From a virus, in the IMG/VR virus record IMGVR_UViG_3300027917_000066, positions 1-47,087 of that record: DNA of 47,087 bases, one strand, 5' to 3'. The translations under genes and the position numbers were made by a program. Below are positions 3,691 to 21,835 of this stretch, piece by piece. Position 1 is the first letter of the stretch. Each line of letters begins with the position of its first letter. Below the pieces are notes generated by a model that saw only the letters and a list, made by a program, of their open reading frames with translations, did no database searches and was not told the origin of the DNA.

Positions 3691-4077
3691 GTGGCCAGAC
3701 CAACCAGAGTCAAGATCAAGCGCGGCGATCAGTGGGTGTATGTCGATGAGCTTGATCAGGTCCGCGAGCAGGAAAACCAGGAAGCCCGCGAGGCCCATGT
3801 GCCCGGCCCGATAGTCATCAACACCCTGCCCAGATTGCAGGACCTTGATGATGAAGTGCCCTACGACCAACTGACCTTCGAGCACCCGGAGGTGAATCCC
3901 TACATCGTCTCGGTGGATGGCGGTCGGTCGGTCAAGATTCGTATGGGTTTATCGCCCGAGCAGCATTGTATTGCCGAGCAGATCATCGCCCGGTTCAAGA
4001 AGAAGATTCGCAAGAAAACCAAGAAGACCACGCACAAGAAGAAGGTGGCAAAGAAAAGGAGTAAACGAGCATGTTGA
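3691..4077 (+). CDS. Hypothetical head-region protein with Lys/Arg-rich tail
   Basis: 128 residues from a GTG start preceded by AAAGGAAG. The body (residues 1-95) is mixed alpha/beta with no recognised motif. The last 30 residues are almost entirely Lys/Arg (KKKIRKKTKKTTHKKK), a likely DNA- or RNA-binding tail. The stop overlaps the scaffold start by 7 nt, implying coupled translation with head genes. Confidence 0.6.
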   Translation: MARPTRVKIKRGDQWVYVDELDQVREQENQEAREAHVPGPIVINTLPRLQDLDDEVPYDQLTFEHPEVNPYIVSVDGGRSVKIRMGLSPEQHCIAEQIIARFKKKIRKKTKKTTHKKKVAKKRSKRAC

Positions 4078-4883
4078 AGCACTGGCTATACGGATCGGGT
4101 ATCAGAGTATTCCACACCGAAGGTGGCGGTGAGGGCGGTGGGGGTGGTGAAGGAGTCGAAGGCGGCGATACTGGCTGGCAGGCAGACCACCCATTCTTCG
4201 CCGACAATCCGGATGCGGCCAAGGCATTCGCGAAATACACCAGCGCCGAGGAGGCATGGAAGGGCGCCCACGAAGCGGTACGCAAGGTGGGCGAACCTTA
4301 CAAGCTGCCCAAGGACCTCTCAAAGCTCACCGAGGAGCAGGCCGCCGATTTCCAGAAGGGCCTCAACACTCTTCGAGGCGTTCCCGAGAGTCCGGACAAA
4401 TACAACTTAACCCTCGGTGATGATGTCGCCGTTGACGATGAGACCATGTCCGAGTTCCGCCAGATGGCTCACAAAGAGGGTTGGACCGAGGCGCAGGCCC
4501 AGGGCGTACTGGACCTCTACAAGGGATATGTCGGCAGGATGGTCGACAAGCGTAACGGCATGATCAAGGACATGACAGACAAGAACTACGACCAGTACGT
4601 CAAGGAGAAGGGCAGCGAGGCCGACGCCAAGCTCAGGCACGGGTGGATCAAAGAGTACCTCCAGACCTGCTGCCTCGGGGAAGACGGCCAGCCCGACAAG
4701 GATGTATGGGAGGCGTTCCAGGCCCGCATCCTCCACGAGGACCGCATTATCGAACTACCGTTGGTGCGGGCGCTGGAGGAACCGGCCAGGCTGGCTCGTG
4801 GCGGCGGTGGTGCTCCTGCCGGCCAGGGCGCCAGTCGGATTGCTCCAGGAGCGCTGGACTATCCGGAAATGAAGAAGAAATAG
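4071..4883 (+). CDS. Capsid scaffolding protein
   Basis: 270 residues. After a Gly/Glu-rich N-terminus the protein is charged and helical. It has the pattern of podovirus scaffolds: VPESPDKYNLTL around residue 104, then EFRQMAHKEGWTEAQAQGVLDLY around 125-150, then long helices and a basic end. Scaffolds form the internal core that guides capsid assembly and are later expelled or degraded. Its place directly before the capsid gene supports the call. Confidence 0.8.
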   Translation: MLKHWLYGSGIRVFHTEGGGEGGGGGEGVEGGDTGWQADHPFFADNPDAAKAFAKYTSAEEAWKGAHEAVRKVGEPYKLPKDLSKLTEEQAADFQKGLNTLRGVPESPDKYNLTLGDDVAVDDETMSEFRQMAHKEGWTEAQAQGVLDLYKGYVGRMVDKRNGMIKDMTDKNYDQYVKEKGSEADAKLRHGWIKEYLQTCCLGEDGQPDKDVWEAFQARILHEDRIIELPLVRALEEPARLARGGGGAPAGQGASRIAPGALDYPEMKKK

Positions 4884-5239: not shown

Positions 5240-5265
5240 TCAACCGCTTGCGTAGAGCGGACAAT

Positions 5266-5392: not shown

Positions 5393-5413
5393 CATTTTTT
5401 AGGAGAAACCGCG

Positions 5414-6409
5414 ATGGCGGAAATCAATGTAGCATCTCAACTGAGCTATGGCGAGATAGCCAAGCGCACGGACCCCAAGGGCGGCCTCGTAGAAATCTTC
5501 GAGGCGATGAACGAGGTCAATCCCGTCTTCAAGTTCATCCCCGCCGTTCAGGCGAACCGCAGGTACAGTCACTTTGTCACTCGCCGAACCTCGGTGCCGA
5601 GTGGAACCTGGAGGAAGTTCTACCAGGGTACCGCCAAGAAGGCGAGCACCACGCAGACCCAGACCTTCCCGGTCGCCCTGCTTGAGGCTCTTTCAGAAGT
5701 CGATGAGGACCTGATCGACACCTCCGAGGACCCCGCAGGCACTCGCCGGCAGGAGGACATGGCGTTTGTCGAGGGTATGCAGCAGCAGGTCATGGACGCC
5801 CTGATCTCCGGGACAACGTCAGGGACGCCCGAGCAGATCGACGGCCTCCAGGGCTACCTCAACAGCCTGTCCAATACGATGGTCTTCGATGGCGGCAACA
5901 GCGGAGGCACCAGCATCTATGTGGTCGATATGTCGCCCTCGACTACGTTCATGATCTACCCTTCTGGCGCCACGAATCGCGGCCCGCAAGGCCTGTCGAT
6001 CAACACCAACCCGACCGGCGGCAACGGTAAGAAATGGGTCACTGACTCAAACAGCCTGGACTACCTCGCCTACTGCACGCAGTTCAAGTGGTGGGTCGGA
6101 TGGGTGGTCAGGGACATGCTGGCAATCGGCCGGTACGCGAACATCAACCCGACAGTCGGCGGCAGCAACACCTTCGACGAGAACAAACTGATCGAGATGC
6201 TGAACTACGGCCGGTTCAATCCCCGCACGACCTACATCCTCTGCACCAAGGAGGTCAAGGCCCAGATGCAGATCAGGGCCAAGGACAAGGCCAACGTCAA
6301 CTTCTCCGTGACCAACGCCCTTTCGGGCGAAGAGGTCGTGATGTTCGGCGGCTACGCCCCGGTCATGCGGTGCGACTCGATCAGCACCAGCGAGACAGTC
6401 GTGACGTGA
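5414..6409 (+). CDS. Major capsid protein (HK97 fold)
   Basis: 331 residues, the shell subunit. The N-terminal pattern SYGEIAKRTDPKG, EVNPVFKFIPAVQAN, then RTSVPSGTWRKFYQGTAK and SEVDEDLID is characteristic of BPP-1-like podovirus capsid proteins. A central Gly/Ser-rich loop (about 150-210) and C-terminal EEVVMFGGYAPVMRCD complete it. AGGAG precedes the ATG by about 8 nt, after a T-run and the structured leader. It is followed by the Bbp16-like gene, as in BPP-1-type heads. Confidence 0.9.
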   Translation: MAEINVASQLSYGEIAKRTDPKGGLVEIFEAMNEVNPVFKFIPAVQANRRYSHFVTRRTSVPSGTWRKFYQGTAKKASTTQTQTFPVALLEALSEVDEDLIDTSEDPAGTRRQEDMAFVEGMQQQVMDALISGTTSGTPEQIDGLQGYLNSLSNTMVFDGGNSGGTSIYVVDMSPSTTFMIYPSGATNRGPQGLSINTNPTGGNGKKWVTDSNSLDYLAYCTQFKWWVGWVVRDMLAIGRYANINPTVGGSNTFDENKLIEMLNYGRFNPRTTYILCTKEVKAQMQIRAKDKANVNFSVTNALSGEEVVMFGGYAPVMRCDSISTSETVVT

Positions 6410-6466
6410 TCCTGATGTGACGTAATGTGACAAGTTCATACGAAACTCAAGCATAAGGAGTTAACG

Positions 6467-6934
6467 ATGAGTATGATAGATTCCAGGTGGGAATTTTGGG
6501 ATGATCAAGCCCTTACCACCGCCGAAAAATCCCACACCAACGGCAACCTGATCGACCTTGAGGAGAATGGCGTTACCGACGAGATGCTGCCGGCGATGCT
6601 CTACTTCAACATCAAGGTCGGCACGGGCTTCACCGGAACCGACAGCGGTGTGATGATCAGTCTGATCACCAGCGACTCGGCGACCTTCGCATCGGGCAAC
6701 CAGTGTGTAATCTCGCTCGGCAGTACGAGTGTGCCGATCCTGGTGGCCGAACTGGCCGCAGGTGCCGTCTTCAGTGCCTCCAGGCACATCTTCAACCTCA
6801 AGAAATACCTGGGTGCGTTCTGGGAACCCGTCTCCGAAGCAGGGGCGACCGGCAAACTTGATTGTTGGGCAGGCCTCGAACCGCTGTCGCCTCTCAAAGT
6901 ACAGAAGGCGCCGGACGGCTACACAATTGCCTAG
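6467..6934 (+). CDS. Bbp16-like capsid cement/decoration protein
   Basis: 155 residues. The layout resembles Bordetella phage Bbp16-type cement proteins that bind the outside of the HK97 shell: MIDSRWEFWDDQALTTAEKS, then a Leu/Val-rich beta region with GTDSGVMISLITSDSATF, and HIFNLKKYLGAFWE near 110. AGGAG lies 5-7 nt before the ATG. It directly follows the capsid gene and is closed by a hairpin. Confidence 0.75.
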   Translation: MSMIDSRWEFWDDQALTTAEKSHTNGNLIDLEENGVTDEMLPAMLYFNIKVGTGFTGTDSGVMISLITSDSATFASGNQCVISLGSTSVPILVAELAAGAVFSASRHIFNLKKYLGAFWEPVSEAGATGKLDCWAGLEPLSPLKVQKAPDGYTIA

Positions 6935-6946
6935 CTAGGACATGAG

Positions 6947-6980: not shown

Positions 6981-7013
6981 TAGAACGTGCAACCTCTTTT
7001 AGGAGATGCAGTT

Positions 7014-7739
7014 ATGAAACGGATGATATGTATCGTACTGGCGGTAAGTCTGACCTTGCTGCTGATGATCATGTCTTTGCTCCCGCTGGCCCGGAGCGCG
7101 ACCATAAGTTACGGCTTGACGCACTACAACGCCAACCGGGGCTATATCGGCTCGGGGACATACAACGACCCGCTCTACAACTTCATCAACGAGGTCGAGA
7201 CAGAACTCGAAGCCAGCAAGACGATTATGATTGATTACTACCCCGCTGCGGTTGAGCTTGACGGCACAGCACCGCCTACACTGACAGCCATCGGGACGGA
7301 CGGACAGGCGAATATCTCGGCCCTGGCTTTCGACGCCGATGGAGGCAGCACAGGCGACGACATCGCCTTCCTCAACTGGACCGTGCCGGATGGCTATGTG
7401 GCCGACTCGGCGAGACTCAACGTTTGGTACTCGTTTTCCACCGCCGAAGATGCAGCGGACGAGGCGCAATTCGACTTCACTGTGCAAGCCTGCGCAGCCG
7501 GCGAGGCGCTGGATGCAGCAGGCACCGCACTGGCCGACCAGACGACAGTAATTGCCGCCGGCAACACCGATAACGGCAAACTCCACATCACGCAGTACAA
7601 CATCGAGGTTGAAGACATTGCCGTTGACGACCTAGTGATAATCATGGTGACTGTGGACGAAAGCGCGTCGGCCCTTGCCAATTCCGGGACGCTCGACGTG
7701 CATAAGTTTGTTATCGAGTACGAATCCAGCGAGCGGTAA
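7014..7739 (+). CDS. Beta-rich virion-module protein with signal peptide
   Basis: 241 residues. Start chosen at 7014, 8 nt after TTTTAGGAG, rather than at the upstream ATG 6987, which has no site. Residues 1-25 are a clear Sec-type signal: KR at positions 2-3, a long Leu/Ile/Val/Met core, and LARSA as the likely cleavage region. The rest is beta-rich, with LAFDADGGSTGDDIAFLNWTV then PDGYVADSARLNVWYSF. This resembles the appendage or fibre-like proteins found in tail loci of environmental phages. A signal peptide on a protein of the virion module is unusual. A terminator follows. Confidence 0.6.
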   Translation: MKRMICIVLAVSLTLLLMIMSLLPLARSATISYGLTHYNANRGYIGSGTYNDPLYNFINEVETELEASKTIMIDYYPAAVELDGTAPPTLTAIGTDGQANISALAFDADGGSTGDDIAFLNWTVPDGYVADSARLNVWYSFSTAEDAADEAQFDFTVQACAAGEALDAAGTALADQTTVIAAGNTDNGKLHITQYNIEVEDIAVDDLVIIMVTVDESASALANSGTLDVHKFVIEYESSER

Positions 7740-7757
7740 GGCTGGTTCCACGAAATA

Positions 7758-7801
7758 GGGCCGGGGCAGTTGTGGTCTTCTGGTGTCCCGCGCCCTTTTT
7801 T
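7758..7801 (+). terminator. Intrinsic terminator
   Basis: Stem GGGC-CGGG pairing with CCCG-C-GCCC around a loop of about 20 nt, immediately followed by six T. It ends 15 nt before the next ATG and separates the signal-peptide protein from the tandem paralogs. It is probably leaky, since all flanking genes point the same way. Confidence 0.75.
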
Positions 7802-7815
7802 CAGAAAGGCACACG

Positions 7816-8163
7816 ATGTTCAAACAAATAGCGTTACCGCAGGAGACGTGGGGTGCGGCGGAAACTGCCCTCGTGACCCGCAAACTGAACGACCGTGGCC
7901 AGGTCTCGCAAATATCCTTCAAGGGCAATAATGCCACCAATGCGATCACGTATGAGTTGATCATCTACGACCCGCTCGGCGGGGTCCTCTACACTCAGTC
8001 GGGGATCGTTGACGCAACAACGACCGTCTACCATGCCACGAAGGATTCTGAAGACTTCCACGAGTTCATCGTCGCCCCTGGTTGCACCTACACCCTTGAA
8101 CCCTCCGGCGCTCCGGGCGTGAGCACTGGCATTGTCGACATCATTCTTGGAATGAAGGAATAA
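7816..8163 (+). CDS. Tandem paralog 1, small beta-rich virion-module protein
   Basis: 115 residues starting at 7816 after AAAGG; the upstream in-frame GTG at 7783 lies inside the terminator and is rejected. The protein is homologous along its full length to the next gene. Shared motifs are MFK at the start, DRGQVSQIS around residue 27, TVYHATKD and EDFHEF around 72-85, PGCT near 90 and a VDI-LGM ending. The high beta content suggests a small structural or decoration subunit. The family is unknown. Confidence 0.65.
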   Translation: MFKQIALPQETWGAAETALVTRKLNDRGQVSQISFKGNNATNAITYELIIYDPLGGVLYTQSGIVDATTTVYHATKDSEDFHEFIVAPGCTYTLEPSGAPGVSTGIVDIILGMKE

Positions 8164-8166
8164 GCA

Positions 8167-8514
8167 ATGTTCAAGCTAGTCACAATACCACAATTGACGT
8201 GGGCCGATACTGAGACTGCCGCGCAGACCGTCAATCTCTTTGACCGGGGCCAGGTGTCGCAGATCAGTGTCAAGGTGAACGACAACACCGGCAACAGGAC
8301 AGTGCAGGTAACGATCAGCGACGAAAATGCCGGGCAGTTGTATGATAAATCCCTAATCCCCGAGAATGCCGTAACGGTCTACCACGCAACCAAAGACACC
8401 GAAGACTTCCACGAATTTGTCATCGGGCCGGGCTGTACTCTCAAGGTCACGCCTTCGGGCGATCCCGGCGCGTCTGGCCTGGAAGTTGATATTGTCCTCG
8501 GTATGGAGGAATAG
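8167..8514 (+). CDS. Tandem paralog 2, small beta-rich virion-module protein
   Basis: 115 residues, exactly the length of the preceding paralog, and only 3 nt separate the two. It keeps MFK, DRGQVSQIS, TVYHATKD, EDFHEF and PGCT, and differs mainly in residues 12-25 and 38-66. AAGGA in the end of the previous gene serves as the ribosome site. The duplication is old enough for wide divergence while keeping core motifs. The products may form hetero-oligomers. Confidence 0.65.
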   Translation: MFKLVTIPQLTWADTETAAQTVNLFDRGQVSQISVKVNDNTGNRTVQVTISDENAGQLYDKSLIPENAVTVYHATKDTEDFHEFVIGPGCTLKVTPSGDPGASGLEVDIVLGMEE

Positions 8515-8517
8515 ACC

Positions 8518-8904
8518 ATGCGTGAAGGGCCGCTGAAGATGCTTGTCATCGCAGCGATCATGGCCCTGCCACTCACAATGGGTGCGGGTTCTGCGATCCT
8601 GCCGTACATCACGCCCTTTATGCGCACAGTCCTGGACGACGCCGACGCCGAGACCGCCAGAGATACTCTTGAGGCCGCCGGCTGGTCGGCGACGATAGTG
8701 AACAGCCCGACGAGTGCAGGAGAGGAGGGCGACCTGTGGGCAGATTCCGGAGGCAATTACCTCTACGTGGCCTACGGCGACAATCAATGGCACCGGGTAG
8801 CCATAGCCACATGGACGCCCGGAGCAAACCATTTGTTGCAGGAAGACGGCACTAGCTTCCTGCTTCAGGAAGACGGGACGTCCAAAATCATACTGGAGAA
8901 TTGA
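8518..8904 (+). CDS. Signal-bearing short tail-fibre-like protein
   Basis: 128 residues after GGAGG. The N-terminus (residues 6-25, LKMLVIAAIMALPLTMGAGSA) is signal-like. Next comes a fibre-type segment with FMRTVLDDADAETARDTLEAAG at about 34-55, a pattern common in tail-fibre shafts, and a GDLWADSGGNYLYVAYG segment. The C-terminus contains the duplicated motif LLQEDGTS-FLLQEDGTS, similar to short repeats closing some phage tail proteins. It overlaps nothing and directly precedes the giant fibre gene. Confidence 0.6.
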   Translation: MREGPLKMLVIAAIMALPLTMGAGSAILPYITPFMRTVLDDADAETARDTLEAAGWSATIVNSPTSAGEEGDLWADSGGNYLYVAYGDNQWHRVAIATWTPGANHLLQEDGTSFLLQEDGTSKIILEN

Positions 8905-8906
8905 TA

Positions 8907-11900
8907 ATGAAAAAGCTCGCCCTATTGCTGGTCTTGATTCTCCCGGCCGCCTTGCAAGCGGCTGACGCGAAACTGACGGCCCTGAGTCAACTGGCCCAGG
9001 CGGACAACGATGATCTTATCTACGTGGTGGACGACGCCAATGGTACGCCTGCAAGCTACAAGATACCGCGCGAGGAATTTCTGATCTCCTGGGCCGGGTC
9101 CACCAACATTACGACCTTGGGCACGATAGCCTCGGGAACGTGGCAGGGTACGACCATAGCCGTCGATCAAGGGGGTACGGGGGCCACATCCCTCTCAGAT
9201 GGGTTCGTCCTTCTAGGCAACGCCACTGGCGCCATTCAGGCCCTCGATGTCACGACCGATGGCGGGATCATCATAGGCGACGGCACGACCGACCCAGTAG
9301 TTCTCGACGTAGGTTCCTCGACGGCAATTACCATTCTGGGAACTGTCGGTACTGGAACGTGGGAAGCTACTGATGTGGGTGTAGAACATGGCGGCACTGG
9401 CCGCTCGACTTCGACTACAGCCTACGGCCTGATAGCGGCTGGCACGACGGCGACGGGAGCACATCAGACGCTTGCAGCCGGTTTGACTACCCAGATACTC
9501 GTAGGCGGTGGGGCAGCGGCCTTGCCTTCGTGGGGCACAGACATTCCCACCGCTGTTACTATCGGATCGGGCTATATCTACCGGGCTGGTGGGACAGACG
9601 TTCCAGTAGGCGACGGCGGGCTAGGCACAGATGTCTCAGCGTTCACCGATGGGTTAGTGGGGGTGGCTACGGGGGCCGTAACCGATATAGACTCCGAAGG
9701 CGAGTTGGAAACAGCTCTCGGAAGCATCGACATTATGGTTGTAGCTACTGACGACTTTTCATCTGCAAACCTCGCTACTGCACTGTCAGATGAAACAGGA
9801 ACGGGCGGTGGCTTTGTGCGAGCCAATAGTGCAACTATGGATTCGCCGACTTTCACCACGGCTGTTACCGCTACAGACCTGCTTACCAATGCACACTTTA
9901 CCCACTCGACCGATTGGGGAGACATCGAAACCGACGGCAGTGGCAATGTCCTGATCGACGCCGACAACAACGTCACGATCACGGGTGATTGGAATTTCGG
10001 GGGGGCTACAAACTTCGAGCTACCGAACTCGGCAACACCGACACTCCCAAACCTCGCCGGTGAGGTAGCTCTTGACACCGACCTCTTGAGCGGGACCACC
10101 GGCCAGGGGATTCTCGAACTTCATTCAGGCGTGCAACTGACCTACATTGTCGGCACAATCGACACTCCGGGCGATGACGAAATACCGAAATATGACTCGA
10201 CCACAGGGACTATCCAATGGGAGACTGACGCTGGAGCCGCAGGCGGCGATGCCTGGAGCGACCCGGTAGACTCGGACATCCTGCCAACGGGCAATGACAA
10301 TACCTTTGACATCGGCAGTTCCGGCGCTTCGTTTGCCGAAGGCTGGTTTGACACAATGCTCTACAGCAAGGCGATAACTCTGACCGATGAGGACGCTTCC
10401 CCGACCGGCGCGGGCGAATTGAAGTATGATAACGGCATTACCGGCCTCGATGACGGAGCTTTGGTGTGGTATGACGATGATGAAATTCGCACGATAGTTG
10501 ACATCGACGCTTCTGAGGGAGTCTTCGAGAGCGGCGATGACGGGCATGTTGTGACTTTCAACTGGAATGCTGGGGCGGCATACTTCGACCTTCAGGCTCC
10601 TGGGGCTGCTTCCGGTGATATAACCGACGTCTGGACCGACGATACAGGTGATGTATCCGCCTTGACTGCCGGAGCAGGCGATACTCTCGACGCAGGAGGG
10701 GCCGACAGTACCGTTCCCTGGGAAATTGATTCTACCGGCACACCAACGACCGAGGGTGAGGCACTATGGAGGACCGACGTTGATAACCTGCTCATTGGCG
10801 ACGGAGCGGCCGGGACAGTCTACATGGCAAAGGGAGCTTCGGACGGCGATGCACTCGCGGGAGACTCGGCATCTGGCTTTTTCGACACCGGCACGGTAGA
10901 AGTAACCTATGGCGGCACTGGAGCGGCGTCTTTGTCCGATGGTTTCGTATTGCTCGGCAACGCCACCGGAGCAATACAAGCCCTTGACGTCACGACTGAT
11001 GGCGGAATAATCATCGGTGATGGTACTACCGACCCGGTAGTTCTCGACGTTGGTTCCTCGACGGCAATTACTATTCTGGGCACTGTTGGAACTGGGACGT
11101 GGGAGGCCACCGACGTCGGAGTTGAGCATGGTGGCACAGGTCGGTCTACTTCAACTACGGCTTATGGTCTCATAGCAGCGGGAACGACCGCCACAGGGGC
11201 TCACCAGACCCTTGCGGCGGGCGGCACCGACGAAATGCTTGTGGGGGGCGGGGCTGCGGCTCTGCCGATCTGGACAACCGCGACAGGGACGGGGGCGCCT
11301 GTGCGGGCAGACTCTCCGTCCTTCTCGACGGAACTGACCGCCACCGACCTGATCGACGTGGAAGACCTCAAACATGAAGATCACGGAGAAATCGACTACT
11401 CTACCGGAAACGCAGTGATTGACGACGGCGTGGCAGTAACCAACTGGAACCTCACCACACCGACCATTACCACCAGTGCGACCGTGACTGATGGAACGTG
11501 GATCGGAATATCAGGGGGAGAAACGATCACCTTCGACGGTACTGGCGACGACATCCAGATTGATGGGGCTCAGGTGGGCATCGGAGTGGACCCCACGCAA
11601 AAATTTCAGGTCGGCTCTGCCACTAACACCGACCGCATAAGCCTCTACCATGATGACACTGACGCTTATATGGAATGGGACGACGGTGTGTTGCGTGTCC
11701 GCACAACTGAAACAGATCAAAATGGAGACATGCGTATATACGGTAATGGGACAGGTTACGCCGCTTTGCGACTCTATGATGAAGACGATGCAGAATCAGT
11801 TGTAATAACGTCCCAAAGTCAACAGGGGTATATCTTCGTCTCTGGCACTGGACCGTCATTCTTGAACTTACAGCACGAGGCAGAGGCCGGGGTAAAGCTC

Positions 11901-13685
11901 TTTACAAGCGCCGGTGACAATGAGACGCCCGAACTGTTCGTCTATGGGTATCGGACGGGCGACCAGTTACGCAATATGCAGATCGCGGTCGGGATTGATG
12001 CTGTGGATACCGCCTCGTTCGACGGCGTGAGCAACTACCTGTTTGACGGCACTATCCAAGCTAATACCTCGCTGATCCTGACAGGGGCCGATGCAGACCC
12101 GACCCTGGCCGGGCAGATACGATACGATTCAACAATCACCGGCCTGGCCGATGGCGGTCTTGTCTGGTACGACCAGGATGAGATACGCAGGGTGGTGGAC
12201 ATCGACGCTTCCGAGGGCGACTTCGCATCGGGTGACGATGCCAAGCTCGTTCGCTACGTCTGGAACGCTGGCAATGGGTATTTCGACCTTGTTACAGCAG
12301 CGGGTGGCGGGGATATGTCGAAGTCCACTTACGATGTTGACACCGACAACGACATCGACCAGGCGGCGGGCGGCACCGAACTTGATAGCTCGGGTGTGAC
12401 TGACGGCCAACTGTTCATCGGCAACTCGACCGGCAATGTATGGGCCCTGGGAACCATCGGCGAAGGGTTGGCTATCGACGTTACCAATGGCAGCGGAACG
12501 GTCAGCGTAGCGTTTGATCCCACGGAAATGACCGGCGCACGGACGTGGAATGACGATACCACCGACGCCTCATTCGCCTGGACCTTCGGGCTGAACGCCG
12601 GCACAGACCCGCAGATTACCTTTGGCGATGGCATTATCAATGCTACGCAGGGAGCTTGGCAGGTCTCCGGCAATGCGGTGTACTATGCAACCGGCACTGA
12701 TGTTGCCGTAACGGACGGGGGAACGGGCGTAGGAACGCTTGATGATGGGTTTGTCTTACTGGGTAATGCAGCGAACGCCATCCAGACACTTGACGTAACG
12801 GGCGACGGCTCGATCATAATTGGTGACGGAACGACCGACCCCACGACACTAGCTGCATTCACATCTTCAACAGGCCAACTCAAGCACGAGTCTGGCGGCA
12901 TCGAAGCCGATATTTCAGCCATAGCGGATGGTGGTATTCTGGTTGGAACTGGTGCCGGGACGATGGCGATCAGAGCATCCGCCTTGACTGCGGGAGCGGC
13001 AGGGTTCTTTACGCATGAACTAGGAGGACTCGAAGCCGATGTCTCAGGCTACACAACCGGTCTCTTTGGCCTTATCACCGGCACGACGACAGACATCGAC
13101 ACCCCTGGGGAGTTGGAAACCGCAGCGGGGCTGGGAGCGTTCTTCTCCGATTACGCAGATGATGGCGACCAGGCTACGATGCAGACTACTCTCGGACTTG
13201 GTACGGGCGACAGCCCGCAATTTACAGCAGTAAATATAGGTGATGCCTCTGATACAACCCTGTCGAGAAATGCAGCGGGAATCTTGCAGGTAGAATCGAA
13301 CGTCATACCAAGAGAGATAGATGTGCCCGGCATGACGAGTACTACTCCGAAAGTGATCTATGCCTTTGCTATTCACGACATAGACGATGGGATGGACGAT
13401 ATAGCTATCCAGTTTCCACGGGCCATGACAATTAGCAAAGTAACGGCAATGTGTATCGGCGGCACCAATGTAGTCGGCAGGCTTTATGAGGTTGACGGAG
13501 ACGGCGACGACAGCGATGCCGTTGGTGTGGAGACGTCAGATTGGACATTTACGACCACGGAAACGGAGGATACATCATTCAATAACGCCGCACTCGACGC
13601 TGGCGATTATCTTCAGTGGGATACTACCTCAGTAAGCGGATCGGTGACGTGCTTTAGGGTTACTGTTGAAGGATATGAAACATAA
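8907..13685 (+). CDS. Giant tail fibre protein with signal peptide and internal repeats
   Basis: 1,592 residues. Start at ATG 8907 (GGAG 9 nt upstream); the TTG at 8901 is too close to that site. Residues 1-20 form a signal peptide (KKLALLLVLILPAALQA, then ADAK). The body is Thr/Gly/Asp-rich with GGTG repeats typical of trimeric fibre shafts. A 104-residue block near residues 89-192 recurs at about 669-772, and a partial copy lies near 1271. A second repeat family ends in VDIDASEG (about 530 and 1100). The last 120 residues form a Cys-containing beta domain likely to be the receptor-facing tip. Seen: repeats, signal. Inferred: receptor binding. Confidence 0.8.
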   Translation: MKKLALLLVLILPAALQAADAKLTALSQLAQADNDDLIYVVDDANGTPASYKIPREEFLISWAGSTNITTLGTIASGTWQGTTIAVDQGGTGATSLSDGFVLLGNATGAIQALDVTTDGGIIIGDGTTDPVVLDVGSSTAITILGTVGTGTWEATDVGVEHGGTGRSTSTTAYGLIAAGTTATGAHQTLAAGLTTQILVGGGAAALPSWGTDIPTAVTIGSGYIYRAGGTDVPVGDGGLGTDVSAFTDGLVGVATGAVTDIDSEGELETALGSIDIMVVATDDFSSANLATALSDETGTGGGFVRANSATMDSPTFTTAVTATDLLTNAHFTHSTDWGDIETDGSGNVLIDADNNVTITGDWNFGGATNFELPNSATPTLPNLAGEVALDTDLLSGTTGQGILELHSGVQLTYIVGTIDTPGDDEIPKYDSTTGTIQWETDAGAAGGDAWSDPVDSDILPTGNDNTFDIGSSGASFAEGWFDTMLYSKAITLTDEDASPTGAGELKYDNGITGLDDGALVWYDDDEIRTIVDIDASEGVFESGDDGHVVTFNWNAGAAYFDLQAPGAASGDITDVWTDDTGDVSALTAGAGDTLDAGGADSTVPWEIDSTGTPTTEGEALWRTDVDNLLIGDGAAGTVYMAKGASDGDALAGDSASGFFDTGTVEVTYGGTGAASLSDGFVLLGNATGAIQALDVTTDGGIIIGDGTTDPVVLDVGSSTAITILGTVGTGTWEATDVGVEHGGTGRSTSTTAYGLIAAGTTATGAHQTLAAGGTDEMLVGGGAAALPIWTTATGTGAPVRADSPSFSTELTATDLIDVEDLKHEDHGEIDYSTGNAVIDDGVAVTNWNLTTPTITTSATVTDGTWIGISGGETITFDGTGDDIQIDGAQVGIGVDPTQKFQVGSATNTDRISLYHDDTDAYMEWDDGVLRVRTTETDQNGDMRIYGNGTGYAALRLYDEDDAESVVITSQSQQGYIFVSGTGPSFLNLQHEAEAGVKLFTSAGDNETPELFVYGYRTGDQLRNMQIAVGIDAVDTASFDGVSNYLFDGTIQANTSLILTGADADPTLAGQIRYDSTITGLADGGLVWYDQDEIRRVVDIDASEGDFASGDDAKLVRYVWNAGNGYFDLVTAAGGGDMSKSTYDVDTDNDIDQAAGGTELDSSGVTDGQLFIGNSTGNVWALGTIGEGLAIDVTNGSGTVSVAFDPTEMTGARTWNDDTTDASFAWTFGLNAGTDPQITFGDGIINATQGAWQVSGNAVYYATGTDVAVTDGGTGVGTLDDGFVLLGNAANAIQTLDVTGDGSIIIGDGTTDPTTLAAFTSSTGQLKHESGGIEADISAIADGGILVGTGAGTMAIRASALTAGAAGFFTHELGGLEADVSGYTTGLFGLITGTTTDIDTPGELETAAGLGAFFSDYADDGDQATMQTTLGLGTGDSPQFTAVNIGDASDTTLSRNAAGILQVESNVIPREIDVPGMTSTTPKVIYAFAIHDIDDGMDDIAIQFPRAMTISKVTAMCIGGTNVVGRLYEVDGDGDDSDAVGVETSDWTFTTTETEDTSFNNAALDAGDYLQWDTTSVSGSVTCFRVTVEGYET
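9171..9482 (+). repeat. Fibre repeat block, copy 1
   Basis: 312 bp encoding 104 residues beginning GGTGATSLSDGFVLLGNATG. It aligns without gaps to 10911-11222. By codon-by-codon reading, 67 of 104 codons differ but only one changes the amino acid (Thr to Ala at position 6). Confidence 0.9.
10911..11222 (+). repeat. Fibre repeat block, copy 2
   Basis: Second copy of the 104-residue block, with 66 synonymous codon differences from copy 1. One patch around 11036-11080 (the segment VVLDVGSSTAIT) is almost identical in DNA as well. A diverged third, partial copy begins at 12717. Confidence 0.9.
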
Positions 13686-13699
13686 AAGGAGATAATAGT

Positions 13700-14068
13700 A
13701 TGGCAATCAGTTACCCCACAGAATGCGACAGTCCGCGACGGCGAATCGAATATTTGTTTGCACTGATGGAGGTCTTGCGGCATGTACATAACCTGATGAG
13801 CTATTGGTATCACAATCCCATCACTCAGGTTCAATACGATAACCCACCATTGCCTGACGTGCCGCTGCCGCTTCGGCCTGTTGTCAGGACGGCATTTACT
13901 TTCCTGAAAAATAAATACCCATTCAAAGTTCAGCTTACAGATGCAGACTGGAAGGAATTTGACCAGGTTGATTATATGCCGCGTCTGCATAAAATCTGCA
14001 CACAAATAGCGATTCAAAAGAACGACCTGAAGAATTCCACAACATATAATGTGAGCATAGACATCTGA
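13700..14068 (+). CDS. Hypothetical protein downstream of the fibre
   Basis: 122 residues after AAAAGGAG. Aromatic-rich and mixed helical, with VLRHVHNLMSYWYHNP around residue 26. The Pro-rich middle (PPLPDVPLPLRP) may be a linker. No signal or membrane segment and no recognised family. Its stop overlaps the next start, so it is probably co-translated with the LamG-like protein. It could be a fibre chaperone or connector. Confidence 0.55.
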   Translation: MAISYPTECDSPRRRIEYLFALMEVLRHVHNLMSYWYHNPITQVQYDNPPLPDVPLPLRPVVRTAFTFLKNKYPFKVQLTDADWKEFDQVDYMPRLHKICTQIAIQKNDLKNSTTYNVSIDI

Positions 14069-14802
14069 TGGCCAACGAAGATTTTACAACCTATACTGAG
14101 GTGGATGAAAACAACGACATCACGGTGACGTCGTCCACAGTGTCATGGACGTCACTATCTCGCGGTGACAACTCATACGTGTATAAGGATCACGGTGTCG
14201 ATCACTTCGACGGCGACTTCACACATCAGTTTGAGATGCTGATAGAGAACGCCGATGTTACCGTGCCCCGGCAGGTAATGTGGATGATTGCCAATGCCAT
14301 CAACAACGAAGAGGCGTTGATTTCTGCATCAGAGGACCTCCAAAATATATTTTACTACGACAATACAAACCTGTATTTGCGGGTTGTTGAGGGTGGCGCT
14401 AGTGCTAGCACTGATATTTTTGCCGCATTCGTCGAAGGGACACCCTACTTTGTAACCGTCAGCCGTGATGATGATGGTGGAGCCAACAACACCGGCCAGC
14501 TTGTCGCCGTTATCCGTACCGGCAGTCATACCGGAACAATCCAGGACACGCTTACCGTGGATTGTTCGGCCGGAGAGCAAAACGATTTCCGCTATCTCTA
14601 TGCCTGTGCCACTTATGACACCGGCCATAATAACCGTGATTGTGACGGGTATACGCAGGATATGGACCTCAATGAAGGTGCTCCCCCAGCTACAACCCCG
14701 CAAGTAATTTTCATTAGTGCCATGATCCCTGCGATGTGGGTCGCTCAAGGCAAAGTTACTCGCAGGCAGTTCTTGCGCAATACAGGACTATGTTTTCTAT
14801 AG
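14068..14802 (+). CDS. LamG/concanavalin-like beta-sandwich tail protein
   Basis: 244 residues. The pattern of strands resembles a jelly-roll lectin-like domain of the LamG/concanavalin type used by phage tails to bind glycans: HFDGDFTHQFEMLIE near 50, NLYLRVVEG near 100, GTPYFVTVSRDDD near 123, then a strand ending in DLNEG. The end is odd: a Pro/Thr linker, a hydrophobic stretch (VIFISAMIPAMWVA), then the basic motif RRQFLRNTG. The function is inferred from fold-like features only. Confidence 0.55.
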   Translation: MANEDFTTYTEVDENNDITVTSSTVSWTSLSRGDNSYVYKDHGVDHFDGDFTHQFEMLIENADVTVPRQVMWMIANAINNEEALISASEDLQNIFYYDNTNLYLRVVEGGASASTDIFAAFVEGTPYFVTVSRDDDGGANNTGQLVAVIRTGSHTGTIQDTLTVDCSAGEQNDFRYLYACATYDTGHNNRDCDGYTQDMDLNEGAPPATTPQVIFISAMIPAMWVAQGKVTRRQFLRNTGLCFL

Positions 14803-14810
14803 ATGACAAT

Positions 14811-15641
14811 ATGAAACGTGCGATACTTTTAATGCTCATGCTCAACGCTCTGGTCAACGGGGCCGATGAAATCCGGGCTTTCAGCCACGCCTCTACCTGC
14901 TATACTGTTATCAGGGAACTCGACGGTGACGTGTGGTACGTGACCGGGCAGGTCTTCGAAGCGTGGGGTACTGGTTCGAGGACGGCGGCAGATTATGACA
15001 TCGCACTCACGGACAAGAGCGGTTGGATGTTCGTCGGCGATATGGATACCAATATTGGGGCGGGGTATTACTATCTCGTCACCCATGAACAGGCAGGGGG
15101 AGCCCCGGCTGATACGGACCCGGCTATCTGGCAGGAGTATGGATATTGGACAGGGTCTACGTGGTATCCCGGTCGAGTGCCTTGGAAGGACAAAGTTGCT
15201 GACTTCACTGCGGAGGACGAGTTCGGCGGAGAAGTGGGAGGGCTTGATCCGAACATAACTGAGATCAAAGCCATAACCGATATTTTCTATACGCTGGACA
15301 CGACAGTTGCCGGGCCGAACGATGCGAACAACTTTACTATCACGGCGGGCATAGACGCAAACGATGTGTATGAGGGTATGATGATTTCCGTCCAGGATGC
15401 TGGGGACTCTCACTGGGAAACGCGAATGATAGATGTGTACCAAGTCGGCAGGGACGTCACCGTTGATTATCCATTCAGTTTTACGCCAGCCGCAGGTGAC
15501 CTTGTCTACATCTGGAACATCATGTATTACCCGCTTGATGCGTTTGACTCAGCCTTATCCACGGGCACCTTATATGGGCCAGGCATTCTGCATATCGACA
15601 GAACGGAGTCGAGCATCCTATACATAGACAGACGGGAGTGA
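14811..15641 (+). CDS. Virion-module protein with signal peptide
   Basis: 276 residues. I chose ATG 14811 because a clear signal peptide starts there: KRAILLMLMLNALVNGADEI, with cleavage likely after NGA. ATG 14790 is the alternative, and an in-frame GTG lies at 14736. The ribosome site is weak, so translation may be coupled to the overlapping upstream gene. The body is aromatic and beta-rich and contains the DANDVYEG-type motif also seen in the nozzle protein. The C-terminal ILHIDRTESSILYIDRRE is a short internal repeat. The role is unknown; its location indicates a tail part. Confidence 0.55.
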   Translation: MKRAILLMLMLNALVNGADEIRAFSHASTCYTVIRELDGDVWYVTGQVFEAWGTGSRTAADYDIALTDKSGWMFVGDMDTNIGAGYYYLVTHEQAGGAPADTDPAIWQEYGYWTGSTWYPGRVPWKDKVADFTAEDEFGGEVGGLDPNITEIKAITDIFYTLDTTVAGPNDANNFTITAGIDANDVYEGMMISVQDAGDSHWETRMIDVYQVGRDVTVDYPFSFTPAAGDLVYIWNIMYYPLDAFDSALSTGTLYGPGILHIDRTESSILYIDRRE

Positions 15642-15645
15642 CATT

Positions 15646-16566
15646 ATGGCTGACAATCCACAAAAACGAGCGATAGCCAATAAAGCCCTGACCATCCTGG
15701 TAGCCGGCAGAACTTCCAATGCAGGGATGCTGTTCGATTCCATAGACGATACGGAGTTCGCCGACTATACCACGGTCTCCGAGGCCTCGAACAAGGACAA
15801 GCGATTGGTGTGCTTTCTCTACGAGGACGTGCTGAAGCAGGTAATCGAAGACGTGGACCCTGAGTTCGCCAGCAAGTTTGAGGACCTCGGCCGGGAGGTC
15901 AAGATCGACCAGGAGTTCGGCGGATGGGACTACCTGTTCGAACTGCCGGACGATTACTTGCATCTAAGGGCGCAAGTAGCCGAGGGCAATCCGGAAAAGA
16001 CTTTCCCGCAGGATACGATGCTTTTTCACGGCTACTCTCATGTGGTAAGCGGATCGGACGGCCAGGCGTATCAATGCCAGACCAATCACACTTCAGTTGA
16101 CGACGCCAACGACGGCCAGCCTCCGGGCAACGACGGCAACTCGAACTGGACGTTGTACGATACTGACGGCAGCCTCGGGGCGACATGGTACGAAAGTGTT
16201 GCTTACAAGACCAATCGCACAGCCTGGTTGATGGCCAGCAATCACTTCAGCAACGAGGACGGCGACGGTGCCTACATCCGATACTCCAGGTACGTGCAGG
16301 CCGGCGTCAGCGACATGCCGCAATACTACCCTTCGGTGTTCAAGAACTGCTTTGCTGCGAGGCTCGCCGCAGAGATGGCCCAGGACTCCAAGGACTACGA
16401 GCGGAGACTGCGACTGCTGGATGAATACGAGAACCACCACAAGATAGAATGCTGGTCCGTCCAGTACGGCAACAAGCACGTAGACCGGCCAAAGACAGTC
16501 CTCGAACGCCGCAGAGGAGGCAGGGGCCGCTCGTTATATGACAGAAGATTGGGGCAGTGGACATGA
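15646..16566 (+). CDS. Tail tubular protein A (T7 gp11-like adaptor) with inserted module
   Basis: 306 residues. T7 gp11-type adaptors link portal to nozzle. Typical parts here are the N-terminal KRAIANKALTILVAG, FLYEDVLKQVIEDVDPEFASK at about 65, FELPDDYLHLRA at about 102, and the C-terminal VFKNCFAARLAAEMAQDSKDYERRLRLLDEYE. Residues about 125-190 form an insertion with AYQCQTNHTS, a Gly/Asn/Pro-rich loop and SNWTLYD. It resembles small chitin- or carbohydrate-binding modules of the Y-C-H-W type. The family is usually about 200 residues, so the extra length fits an insertion. Confidence 0.8.
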   Translation: MADNPQKRAIANKALTILVAGRTSNAGMLFDSIDDTEFADYTTVSEASNKDKRLVCFLYEDVLKQVIEDVDPEFASKFEDLGREVKIDQEFGGWDYLFELPDDYLHLRAQVAEGNPEKTFPQDTMLFHGYSHVVSGSDGQAYQCQTNHTSVDDANDGQPPGNDGNSNWTLYDTDGSLGATWYESVAYKTNRTAWLMASNHFSNEDGDGAYIRYSRYVQAGVSDMPQYYPSVFKNCFAARLAAEMAQDSKDYERRLRLLDEYENHHKIECWSVQYGNKHVDRPKTVLERRRGGRGRSLYDRRLGQWT

Positions 16567-19500
16567 GAAAGCGACTCGAAATCCTGGTGCCGCTCCTGGT
16601 GGTCTGCACCACCTTCGCTATCGGCGCGACGGTCAACAAGATGGCGAACCTCAACCAGTTCAATTCGGGAGAGGTATCAGGGCTTTTGGAAGGCAGAACC
16701 GACTACCAAAAGTACAACGCCTCGGCTCGCACCCTCCAGAATATGATCGTCCGCTCACAGGGGCCTGTTCAGCGCCGTCCGGGCCTCAAGTGGATTTCGA
16801 CCGTCAAGGACTCAAACGATCAGGCCCGCCTGATTCCCTTCGAATACTCGACTGAAGACGCCTACGCCATCGAACTTGGCGATCTGTACGCGAGATTCTA
16901 CCGAGACGCCTCGCCGGTCCTGGATGCCAACGGCGTTGTCTATGAGATCGCAACCCCTTGGGACAGCAATGACTTATTCGATCTGCACTACGCCCAGGAT
17001 GCAGAATATCTCCGGGTGGTGCATCCGAACTACGCTCCGCACAAGATATGGAGGGCGAGCGCCAACCACGCCGACTGGCGATGCGAGAAGATCAAGTTTG
17101 TGGACGGGCCGTTCCTTGATGAGAACACTCAGGTAGGCGTGACCCTTACCGCCGGCAGTACGGGCGATGCCAACGGTCACGATTATTACAAGATCAACGA
17201 GGAGGCGAGCGTTCTGCTGCACGGCGCTAACTGGTACGCCCAGACCTTTACGGCATCCAAATCCTATACGGCAACAGGCGTCAAATTGAAACTGTTGCGA
17301 GTAGGATCGCTGCCCGGCGAAGTCGCGGCGTCACTACGGGCGACTTCCGGAAGTCTGCCTACGGGTGCGGACCTGACCTCCGGAGTTGTCGACGGGAACA
17401 CTGTAACGACCAATATCGGCGGTGAGTGGAAGGAGTTTGTATTCAGCAGCCCGCAGGCGCTAACCGGCAGTACTGAATATGCAATCGTCTATCGCGCGGT
17501 CGATGCGACACCAACCGATTACATCCGCTGGCGGCTCGACGTGGACCCGGCAACGACCTACACAAACGGCCAAGTGTGCGTCTCTGGCAATTCGGGCTCG
17601 ACATGGGCGGCAGGCACGGCCGATGCGATGTTCAAGGTCGTCGCGCAGGACGTCAACTCCAGCACCACCAGCACGACGGTTAACGCCAGCGCCGACATCT
17701 TCGATCCGCTTCATGTAGGGTCCATCTGGCAAATCTCCCACCAAGAGGATGGCGCGGCCATAAGAGGCACTTTCACAACTACGGAATGGCGAGTCCAGGC
17801 AGGTGGAGCATCCGATCAGAACTCGGCGACAATAACCGTGTACGAGGACCAGGACTACGCCATCACATGCGTTGGATTCTGGGCAGGTACCCTGCTGATT
17901 CAAAGATCGGTTAACAACGGAGTGACGTGGGATACTGTCTACGCCTACACCAAGGGCGCTCAGACAGAACCCGGTCTGGTCTTCACAGGGACCGAGACCG
18001 AGGAGGATGCGCTCTATCGCCTTCAGATGAAAGACCTTGTCGGCTATCGGCCCCACCGCAATGATTATTACTTATCATTTCCATACACGCTGATCTCCCT
18101 GCCGTTCACGCGGCAAGGCGTTGTAGAAATTACCGGCTACACCGATCCAAATACTGTTGATGTCTCGATTCGCAAGTCGCTCGGCGCGGTAACAGGCACC
18201 TCGATATGGGCCGAGGGGGCCTGGAGCGATTACCGCGGATGGCCGCGAACGGTGGAATATCATGAGCAGCGGTGCCTCTATGGTGGTTCGAGGTCATGGC
18301 CACAGACAATCTGGGCCTCTATCACAGCGACAAAGGACAGCGAGTACGACGACTTCGATGAAGGTCCCAAGAACGATCCGGCCGCCGATGATGCCTGGAC
18401 GTATGTTCTTCCCGGGATGAGTCCGATCCAATGGATGAAAAGCGCCGACTTCCTCATGATTGGAACCACGAAGGCGGTCGGGCGGCTCGGCACCGAAACC
18501 GAAGCCATCACCCCCCTGGTGTCACCACCCTACCGCACCCAGGCCAAGAACGGTTCTGCATACATACAGCCGGTCGACGCCGTCGACGCCCTGCTCTACG
18601 TAGAGCGGGGAGGTGAGAAGGTCCGCGAACTGACCTACACCTATGCCAGTGATAGGTTCATCGCTCCCGACATGACGATCCTGGCGCAGCACATTACCGG
18701 CACGGGCCTTATCGAGATCGCATTCCAGAACCGCCCCGACCCGATACTCTGGGCGATCCGCGAGGACGGGTATGCGCTGTCTCTGACCTACGAGCGTAAG
18801 CAGGAGGTACTGGCATGGGCCAGGCACAATACCGGCCAGGACGTGAACGACTGGAATGACATTGATCTATTCGAGTCGGTTACTGTGATTCCGGGGTCGG
18901 GAACTACGCCATCGGGCGATACTTGGGTTGAGGATGCAGTCTATTTTATCGTAAACAGAACAATTGACGGCAATGACTACAGATTGGTCGAGGTGATGAC
19001 GCCTATGGATTGGGGCGCGGACGAGGATTGGGCGTGGTTTGTCGACGGAGGCATCAGCGGCAATTCGAGTGGCGTGGCCGAGACGGGCGGCGGAGCTACG
19101 ACGTACACCATGAGCTACATCAGTGAAAACGGGGCGATTTGGGGCATCCCATTGGGAGACAGGGCAATGCTCAGCGGCCCGGATGCTAACGATGTCAATG
19201 ACGTTGGCGGTGGAATTGTAGGCATCCCCTATACCGCGCACCCATTCAGTAGCGGCGACGTGATTCGCATTGCAGGCTCGACCAATTACACCGGCACCCA
19301 CACGCTGACAGCAGGTACATCTGCGAATGAATTGCAATTCAGCGACACATACACACCAGAGACGTTCGATGGGACCGAGCAGATATACGAATACATAAAC
19401 GTCAGCGCCGGATATGGACGTTTTATCGTCGATGCGAACTATGTCATGTACTATGGTCACAGCAAGACCGGCAGCAATCCCAACGTCACCTACGTCACGC

Positions 19501-20915
19501 GTCTCGAACCAAACGGCGTAACGACCGCAGACTATGATTTTCTGACCACCAGTTCGGAGACCATGTACCAGGACGGATTTACGGGCGACTGCCGGGGTTT
19601 GGCTGTTAGCACCGATGCCAATGACCTGTTCATGTGGCTCAACAAAGACGGCGCTACTGACCACGGGTATATGCACCGCTGGAACCTTGCAACTGGTGAT
19701 CTGAAATGGGAAAGTTCCCCTGTCGTCGGGGTTACAAGCTGGCCGGGCTACGATATGTGCATTGACGATGCCAACAATGCCTACGCTCCCGGTACTAACG
19801 GCTCTGAGATTATCCAATTCGCCGCCGCTGACGGGGCCGCAACTGAACTTGCCCTGAGAAACGGTCACGCTTCCATAACGAATGCCGCAGGGGCGTATTG
19901 CGTCGAATATGATTCCGCTCAGGACAAACTTGTTGTCGCTGGCTACCAGCAGATTGCAACTGGTTTTGCCTACACGGACTTTTTCAATGTCGTTGTCATG
20001 GATACCGATGGCACCAATCAGGTGGAGATCCTCGCTGGCAACTGGTGGGATGATACTGGAGTCCGATATACCAGCGTGGTTAAAAGCGGATGTTTGGCCA
20101 TCGACAGTCCGTATATCTATGTTCTGGCCGACGTCAACGGGACCACGCCGACAATCTACAAATATGACTTTGCGGGCAACCTGCAAGCCTCTGTGGCCGG
20201 CCCGACGTATGCTGTAGGATTGGACTTCAACGCATGGGGAGACCTCATTGTTATTAATCAGGATTGGGTTAATTATCAGGACGAAATCTTCTGGTACTAC
20301 GACACCGATCTCAATTATCTGACCAAGATCACCGGCAGTTACAACGAACTGCTCCGCAGTTGGGACGCCAGCGCCGGGGGACCCTGGATTCAAGGCTCGA
20401 TTTTGCCCAACGGCACTGTTGCCACTATCACCTACGGCGTGGATGTCAACGACATGGCAGTCGCCCACCTGCCGAATACCGAAGTCTGTGTATATGCCGA
20501 TGGAATACCGCGCGGCCAATATACGGTAAGCGCCGATCCCAACGGTACGCAAGTAATTAACCTCGGAGCGAATTATTCCGTCGTTGTTGCCGGGCTGAAC
20601 TACTATTCGATCTACGAAAGCCTTCCGATAGTCAATTCCCAGAGCCAGGGTCGCATGACCATGCTAAAAGACGTCGTGGTTGATTACTATGAAACAATGG
20701 GGTCCCACGTTGGTACATCATATACCTACAGCGCCGACTTAAAGTTCAGTTACGACAATTGGGCGACGGGAATCAGTCCTTATACGGGATTCAAAGGCCC
20801 CGTAGGCCTGCTCTCGGCGCTTAACAGGGACCCGACTATCTATATCTGGGAGTGGGACCCGCTGCCAATGTGCATTCGTTCGATCAATACCACCCAGGAG
20901 ATCACGATGCCATGA
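16563..20915 (+). CDS. Tail tubular protein B / nozzle (T7 gp12-like) with signal peptide and large insertions
   Basis: 1,450 residues against about 800 in T7. ATG 16563 overlaps the previous stop. Residues 1-22 (RKRLEILVPLLVVCTTFAIGA) are signal-like. The gp12 hallmark follows: LNQFNSGEVSGLLEGRTDYQKY, then LQNMIVRSQGPVQRRPG. Residues about 210-400 look like an inserted beta sandwich (YAQTFTASKSYTATGVKLKL, SGNSGSTW). The gp12 core returns at about 560-800 (EYHEQRCLYGGS, PLVSPPYRTQAKNG). Residues about 900-1280 read like a PQQ/WD-type beta-propeller (repeated ANDLFMWLN, ATGDLKWESS, DDANNAYAPG). The gp12 C-terminus ends in DPLPMCI. Domain limits are by eye. Confidence 0.85.
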   Translation: MRKRLEILVPLLVVCTTFAIGATVNKMANLNQFNSGEVSGLLEGRTDYQKYNASARTLQNMIVRSQGPVQRRPGLKWISTVKDSNDQARLIPFEYSTEDAYAIELGDLYARFYRDASPVLDANGVVYEIATPWDSNDLFDLHYAQDAEYLRVVHPNYAPHKIWRASANHADWRCEKIKFVDGPFLDENTQVGVTLTAGSTGDANGHDYYKINEEASVLLHGANWYAQTFTASKSYTATGVKLKLLRVGSLPGEVAASLRATSGSLPTGADLTSGVVDGNTVTTNIGGEWKEFVFSSPQALTGSTEYAIVYRAVDATPTDYIRWRLDVDPATTYTNGQVCVSGNSGSTWAAGTADAMFKVVAQDVNSSTTSTTVNASADIFDPLHVGSIWQISHQEDGAAIRGTFTTTEWRVQAGGASDQNSATITVYEDQDYAITCVGFWAGTLLIQRSVNNGVTWDTVYAYTKGAQTEPGLVFTGTETEEDALYRLQMKDLVGYRPHRNDYYLSFPYTLISLPFTRQGVVEITGYTDPNTVDVSIRKSLGAVTGTSIWAEGAWSDYRGWPRTVEYHEQRCLYGGSRSWPQTIWASITATKDSEYDDFDEGPKNDPAADDAWTYVLPGMSPIQWMKSADFLMIGTTKAVGRLGTETEAITPLVSPPYRTQAKNGSAYIQPVDAVDALLYVERGGEKVRELTYTYASDRFIAPDMTILAQHITGTGLIEIAFQNRPDPILWAIREDGYALSLTYERKQEVLAWARHNTGQDVNDWNDIDLFESVTVIPGSGTTPSGDTWVEDAVYFIVNRTIDGNDYRLVEVMTPMDWGADEDWAWFVDGGISGNSSGVAETGGGATTYTMSYISENGAIWGIPLGDRAMLSGPDANDVNDVGGGIVGIPYTAHPFSSGDVIRIAGSTNYTGTHTLTAGTSANELQFSDTYTPETFDGTEQIYEYINVSAGYGRFIVDANYVMYYGHSKTGSNPNVTYVTRLEPNGVTTADYDFLTTSSETMYQDGFTGDCRGLAVSTDANDLFMWLNKDGATDHGYMHRWNLATGDLKWESSPVVGVTSWPGYDMCIDDANNAYAPGTNGSEIIQFAAADGAATELALRNGHASITNAAGAYCVEYDSAQDKLVVAGYQQIATGFAYTDFFNVVVMDTDGTNQVEILAGNWWDDTGVRYTSVVKSGCLAIDSPYIYVLADVNGTTPTIYKYDFAGNLQASVAGPTYAVGLDFNAWGDLIVINQDWVNYQDEIFWYYDTDLNYLTKITGSYNELLRSWDASAGGPWIQGSILPNGTVATITYGVDVNDMAVAHLPNTEVCVYADGIPRGQYTVSADPNGTQVINLGANYSVVVAGLNYYSIYESLPIVNSQSQGRMTMLKDVVVDYYETMGSHVGTSYTYSADLKFSYDNWATGISPYTGFKGPVGLLSALNRDPTIYIWEWDPLPMCIRSINTTQEITMP

Positions 20916-21280: not shown

Positions 21281-21835
21281 ATGGCCAACGATCCACTTAG
21301 CGCAGGCATGTTTCTCCTGAGCACGGCCCAAGCTTATCAGCAGAGGAAGGGCGGTGAGGACGCCCAGGAGACGTACAATGCGCTTGCGGCCGAGGAATAC
21401 GCTCAGGCCGAATGGGAGAAGCGCATGGGCATGGAGGAAATGCGAGACCTCGACCGTGAAGGCAGAGGCGCCGAAGGCAGAGTTATTGCCCAGGCCGGCA
21501 AGGGTCTTCGTGTTGCCGGGTCAGTAAAGGACCAGGCCGGCAAGGTACGCACCGAGGTCGCAAGACGCAAGCACATGATCAGCATGAGAATGCAGGAGTC
21601 GATCAGGCGCCGTCACGTCCGGGCAGACCAGTTGAGAAGCGCCGGCAGGGCCGCCAGGGTTGCGGGCCAGCGACAAGCCGTAACGAGCCTCCTGGTCGGC
21701 ACGGCTGCGGTCGGAATGCGACGGTACAAAAAAGGCTATTGGCCGTTCGGAAAAAAAGGCCCCGTGGGTGAAAGGGGAACCGGCACCTGGCAGGGTCGAG
21801 TCCCAGGCATCATAGAAGAAAGGGATAGAAGATAA
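21281..21835 (+). CDS. Internal virion protein B-like (T7 gp14-like position)
   Basis: 184 residues. Ala/Gln/Glu/Arg-rich and mostly helical (residues 10-130), with an Ala/Val hydrophobic stretch near 135 (SLLVGTAAVGM) and a basic Gly-rich end. T7 gp14-type proteins are small helical ejection proteins that insert into the outer membrane. Size, composition and position before two very large proteins match that role. No sequence motif proves it. Confidence 0.6.
   Translation: MANDPLSAGMFLLSTAQAYQQRKGGEDAQETYNALAAEEYAQAEWEKRMGMEEMRDLDREGRGAEGRVIAQAGKGLRVAGSVKDQAGKVRTEVARRKHMISMRMQESIRRRHVRADQLRSAGRAARVAGQRQAVTSLLVGTAAVGMRRYKKGYWPFGKKGPVGERGTGTWQGRVPGIIEERDRR

Follow-up and report, generated by a model that had tools for sequence, protein, structure and literature searches.

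Predicted export signals on the outer tail proteins of a group of epsilon15-like podoviruses with partial links to planctomycetes

In the standard podovirus pathway, a finished head acquires its tail proteins in sequence (PMC3185693), and no membrane separates the two. The 47,087-base virus record IMGVR_UViG_3300027917_000066, referred to here over its whole length as the window, raises the question of where such joining would take place in a virus whose tail proteins appear to be marked for export. An earlier note on this DNA had described Sec-type N-termini on five proteins of the virion module, and on scoring these N-termini proved real.

The window virus and its probable host

The window virus is an epsilon15/T7-like podovirus. 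It encodes a GP7-type major capsid protein (5414..6409; PF20911, E 8e-58), a gp12/PHROG 376 nozzle (E 1e-146), and a portal that belongs to PF12236, the head-to-tail connecting family (E 1e-41), and its head-to-tail gene order (portal, cement, adaptor, nozzle, and internal proteins) matches that of epsilon15. The epsilon15-like podoviruses, among them epsilon15 itself and Carin1 (nozzle 8ck1), share the same order of GP7 capsid, portal, cement-like, adaptor, nozzle, GNAT-like, and internal-protein genes. The tail genes of the Salmonella phage epsilon15 are plain, its only signal-scoring gene of at least 150 aa being the spanin, whereas those of the window are not; plainness is no formal criterion of the group, and the window clade is an epsilon15-like variant as regards tail export signals. 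The last gene of the window, encoding the terminase large subunit, is interrupted by the end of the record.

Bases 1884-12355 of the window are 100% identical to a 10,472-base contig of the metagenome-assembled genome of Phycisphaerae bacterium SG8_4, which makes a planctomycete of the class Phycisphaerae the probable host, an assignment that rests on bins, in which errors are possible. This contig was the sole real match when 397 Phycisphaerae genomes were searched for short stretches of shared DNA, the others being short and weightless. Relatives of the window also occur in Phycisphaerae bins, and some of the short-tailed viruses with the trait are linked to planctomycetes.

Signal-bearing and signal-free genes of the window

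Genes were called with a home-made gene caller, and N-termini were assessed with a home-made tripartite scorer that weighs the n-region, the hydrophobic core, and the residues at -3/-1. For its calibration, two annotated 50-kb segments of the E. coli K-12 genome were used, with protein classes assigned from product names and general knowledge; a threshold of 12 took 8/10 of the Sec-secreted proteins, 5/5 of the lipoproteins, 1/20 of the membrane proteins, and 0/56 of the cytoplasmic proteins. When the first 60 residues were shuffled, 0.2-1% of trials gave a score of 12 or more, and no such score occurred among 463 internal 60-mers of the window. Outside the five proteins, the only window genes at or above 12 are those at 935, with a score of 12.8, at 32381, which begins like a lipoprotein, and at 39361.

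The five signal-bearing genes lie on the + strand and, by this scorer, show the basic n-region, hydrophobic core, and small -3/-1 residues of substrates of Sec and signal peptidase I. The first (7014..7739) encodes a spike-type protein of 241 aa that begins MKRMICIVLAVSLTLLLMIMSLLPLARS^A, the caret marking the predicted cut after residue 28 (signal 7014-7097, score 22.1). Its family combines a conserved N-terminal block with a variable C-terminus and, in relatives, a right-handed beta-helix; in the model of the relative L011, whose mean pLDDT is only 55.7, the middle forms a beta-helix with fair confidence, and its best PDB match is the HK620 tailspike (E about 2e-3), so that the family may be a secreted polysaccharide enzyme. 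The second (8518..8904) encodes a small tail-like protein of 128 aa with a weak PHROG tail match (E 0.0017), beginning MREGPLKMLVIAAIMALPLTMGAGS^A with a predicted cut after residue 25 (signal 8518-8592, score 15.0), and its homologue at 4211 in L058 is likewise signal-bearing. The giant fibre of 1592 aa (8907..13685), which has a PHROG tail fibre match, begins MKKLALLLVLILPAALQA^AD, with a predicted cut after residue 18 (signal 8907-8960, score 22.9). A putative tail accessory or fibre-associated protein of 276 aa (14811..15641) begins MKRAILLMLMLNALVNG^AD, with a predicted cut after residue 17 (signal 14811-14861, score 17.5); genes of this type at L050 8114 and L006 15115 also carry a signal, and similar-looking genes in L010 (20504) and L011 (13607) have plain starts. 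The fifth is the gp12-like tail nozzle of 1450 aa (16563..20915), which begins MRKRLEILVPLLVVCTTFAIG^AT, with a predicted cut after residue 21 (signal 16563-16625, score 12.6) and a canonical body from near residue 27. The hydrophobic cores had been put at 12-18 residues, a range that fails for 7014, where the uninterrupted core is 23 residues long, and for 14811, where it is only 8.

Shine-Dalgarno-like sites precede the starts at 7014, 8518, and 8907. The start at 14811 has none, and a competing ATG at 14790 scores 11.6. The signal-bearing nozzle start at 16563 is favoured because it overlaps the stop of the upstream adaptor gene as ATGA. The window nozzle also contains two large inserts (approximately columns 205-370 and 890-1310 of alignment A2) that are mostly missing from its nearest relatives.

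Every nameable fibre or spike, together with the nozzle, is signal-bearing, whereas the portal, capsid, scaffold, adaptor, and ejected proteins are signal-free. The claim that the head-side genes lack such signals was upheld when the portal, scaffold, capsid, adaptor, GNAT-like, and gp15/16-like genes were scored. On the + strand, signals are absent from the portal (1458..3206, score -23.7), the scaffold-like protein (4071..4883, with PHROG matches), the major capsid protein, the cement-like protein that follows it (6467..6934, in an epsilon15 gp8-like position with a weak match to PHROG 427), and the adaptor (gp11-like; 15646..16566, PHROG 394 tail, score 1.9). The gp14/15/16-like genes for internal, ejected proteins (21281..31478, + strand) score 9.6, -3.6, and -16.3. 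The first of these, the gp14-like PHROG 418 internal virion protein at 21281, lacks a basic start; hydrophobic starts of gp14-like proteins are a background feature across podoviruses generally. The virion-module genes at 7816, 8167, 13700, and 14068 also scored as signal-free, which counts against reading the division as one of compartments. The first two are tandem, similar genes of 115 aa (7816-8163 and 8167-8514) between the spike and fibre genes, and their family recurs in relatives.

Conservation and linkage of the signals in relatives

Relatives were gathered by capsid searches (100-55% identity), and nozzle searches, of which a first scan with a single query sequence gave no matches, yielded many more. 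With all candidate starts of each nozzle taken into account, the N-terminal scores were bimodal, at 11-23 for signal-bearing nozzles and below 3.5 for plain ones. Signal-bearing nozzles were found in about 20 distinct related contigs, down to ~31% identity, with signals kept at the same genes while their sequences have diverged; the plain homologues bear out the view that relatives of the nozzle and fibre are normally signal-free, their count being approximate because the blast match falls short of the N-terminus in a few. The model of a related nozzle (G004; mean pLDDT 81.5, with a low-confidence signal stretch) matches the Carin1 nozzle 8ck1 (E 2e-53, TM 0.74) and T7 gp12. A second nozzle-like gene lies behind the nozzle in L050 (12522-15020) and G002 (reverse, 19483-22224), with a hydrophobic, basic N-terminus scoring 9.2 and 7.5, respectively.

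The predicted cut sits where plain homologues begin. In plain nozzles (n=68), the distance from the initial Met to a conserved FNAGE-type motif is 9.4 +- 1.5 residues, and in signal-bearing nozzles the distance from the predicted cut to this motif is 7.6 +- 3.6 residues, a figure that includes three zeros that are evident mis-cuts by the scorer. Likewise, most homologues of the gp17-like fibre of L053 in phage records start at its residue 22, and its cut is predicted at 21^22. The -1 residue of the 77 predicted cuts is A in 47, G in 23, and S in 6, the cut being picked by the scorer itself. A disulphide argument for export was dropped, as signal-bearing nozzles showed no excess of cysteine (0.77% vs 0.75%).

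The state of the nozzle is linked to that of other genes. Among genes of at least 150 aa, 57/162 carry a signal in signal-nozzle contigs and 14/375 in plain-nozzle contigs, the 14 being mostly gp14-like hydrophobic starts; in a held-out set of contigs gathered afterwards, the counts were 14/44 and 5/373, all five gp14-like in appearance. T7-gp17-like fibres are signal-bearing in 7/7 cases beside a signal nozzle and in 0/24 beside a plain one (Fisher p 4e-7, a value that overstates the case because related contigs are not independent trials), and a further basic signal gene is present in 17/17 signal-nozzle contigs and 8/77 plain-nozzle contigs. As the contigs were grouped by nozzle state, the nozzle count is not independent evidence, whereas the fibre counts are. 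All five cluster members of the 8907-type fibre carry a signal, and no signals were found in the capsid (0/17), scaffold (0/15), or cement-like (0/16) clusters or on any portal or adaptor. The sequences show signals that have kept their kind, directly precede the canonical N-terminus, and are linked between nozzle and fibre. A compartment rule is not absolute, because all 7014-type spikes with an intact N-terminus are positive, including those of G519 (11.7, just below the threshold) and L069, where the nozzle and gp17-like fibre are plain.

Signals on terminases were dropped as a candidate, with only 1/8 in the cluster; the terminase-like genes at L006 2662, L009 1510, and L010 1973 have hydrophobic N-terminal extensions that are inconsistent across the family. 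Tat-like (twin-arginine) starts such as MLRRTFIKSAIGIVPAISIANTFA and MLRRDFLKLVGCLPFVSQL occur on small genes (L006 8470-8985, L005 3741-4145, L008 7094-7498, and L010 5540-5791) that lie upstream of the capsid gene, directly so in L005, L006, and L008; none was seen in the window.

In a nozzle tree built on the body alignment with the signal columns removed, the window falls in a group of 13 rows, of which 12 are signal-bearing and one (G519) is plain, with L063 and L110 outside it. At least 4 state changes are needed, compared with 11.5 for shuffled labels, and independent gains of the nozzle signal are likely, the branches near L063 and L110 being weakly supported. In G519 neither the nozzle nor the gp17-like fibre has a signal, and in its close relative G509 both do.

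Export before joining, and its alternatives

The earlier note had left open whether tail parts are exported or membrane-inserted before assembly or whether the host treats such N-termini differently, and the data favour the former. From the signals we infer export, cleavage, and the place and time of joining as follows. By virtue of cleavable Sec signals, the nozzle, gp17-like fibres, and spikes would cross the host inner membrane; the portal, capsid, scaffold, adaptor, and ejection proteins would remain in the cytoplasm, and joining would be late. This reading of the sequences is given a probability of about 0.6. Once trimmed by signal peptidase, the nozzle would have a mature N-terminus much like that in ordinary podoviruses. 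DNA-filled, adaptor-closed heads would encounter the nozzle and spikes only at a late stage, the simplest sites being the periplasm or the lysate after lysis proteins have opened the membrane. Joining outside the cytoplasm would need heads that retain DNA without the nozzle. Heads of P22 can be completed with tailspike in vitro. No holin or endolysin family was recognised among the genes scanned, which counts against this explanation. A possible lysis cassette lies after the gp16-like gene, at 31492-32872. It comprises a pair of short genes, each encoding a single hydrophobic stretch, and a gene of lipoprotein type with the lipobox LLVGC, and its genes gave no convincing family matches.

The data are equally compatible with assembly across an intact membrane, in which head and tail would be built on opposite sides of the inner membrane, to be connected at that membrane or through it. 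The tail would then reach completion in the periplasm ahead of lysis or in its absence. This course is considered improbable. Chronic phage release without lysis has been reported for the planctomycete isolate Poriferisphaera strain ZRK32 (PMC10945688), the kinship of that phage to the window virus not being established. No likelier is that the N-termini serve as uncleaved anchors, which would tether tail parts to the inner membrane for heads to dock or would stay in the virion and aid penetration. The hydrophobic N-termini with basic n-regions, the 23-residue core of 7014, which is of membrane-spanning length, and the assembly of T4 heads on the inner membrane (PMC3185693) are consistent with anchoring, but signal-like cleavage residues are located where plain relatives begin, several of the cores are short, and a Sec-inserted N-terminal anchor would still place the large body of the protein outside the cytoplasm.

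Slightly less probable again is export for some other job, such as receptor masking, phage exclusion, polysaccharide digestion, or help in lysis, with virion copies drawn from unexported precursor or from internal starts. The 7014-type spikes, which resemble polysaccharide-degrading beta-helices and are signal-bearing even beside a plain nozzle, fit such a role, as does the internal ATG at 16641 of the window nozzle; however, of the nozzles examined, only those of the window and L056 offer an in-frame ATG between signal and motif, and a free role for a nozzle is not known.

A general habit of phages of the host class, or of planctomycete genomes, would agree with the Phycisphaerae bins of the relatives, yet it was largely contradicted by a host control of 20 portal-centred regions (PF04860) from Phycisphaerae genomes, in which signals were absent from the siphophage-like tail modules with rare exceptions, and by the nozzles in other Planctomycetota genomes, which are plain. 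Since these are mostly signal-free, the trait belongs to the podovirus group and tracks its clade rather than the host class. A similar PF04860 portal gene (~E 1e-35) is found in many Phycisphaerae genomes (e.g., L179, L186, L187, and L188) and is possibly a common element of the class. Mis-called starts, with true starts downstream and the hydrophobic codons a leader or non-coding, would suit the window nozzle, whose ATG at 16641 lies at the canonical start, but they are ruled out as a general explanation by the relatives, nearly all of which lack such an ATG, and the ATGA overlap favours a window start at 16563. More weakly, the L110 and L113 nozzles share identical signal residues with one synonymous change only inside the signal; this selection test on close pairs was of insufficient size to carry weight by itself.

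Relation to known phages and meaning for assembly

The nozzle fold and fibre N-domain are shared with the T7 gp12 nozzle and gp17-like fibre and with Pelagibacter phage HTVC203P, whose nozzle and fibre lack N-terminal signals, the comparison having been scored on HTVC203P rather than on T7 itself. The coat proteins of Inoviridae carry signal sequences. These phages place structural proteins in the inner membrane (PMC3185693); unlike filamentous phages, whose genomes are ssDNA and which are extruded through the envelope with no lysis, the window group consists of tailed dsDNA viruses with terminase, portal, and capsid, and has its signals on tail parts only. That a tailed phage can assemble in association with a membrane is known from T4 (PMC3185693), but its membrane-bound part is the head initiator, whereas the parts predicted to be exported here belong to the tail. 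No account of the trait was found in the open-licence literature searched.

The presence of apparently genuine export tags on outer tail parts, and their absence from head parts, suggests that a membrane lies between the sites where head and tail are made and that the two are united at a late stage. If true, this would be a new assembly route, in which heads and tails are kept apart until the membrane opens, and a new way of timing maturation, and the prior export of outer tail parts would explain the divide between adaptor and nozzle. The signals also provide a sequence mark by which this uncultured phage group can be found.
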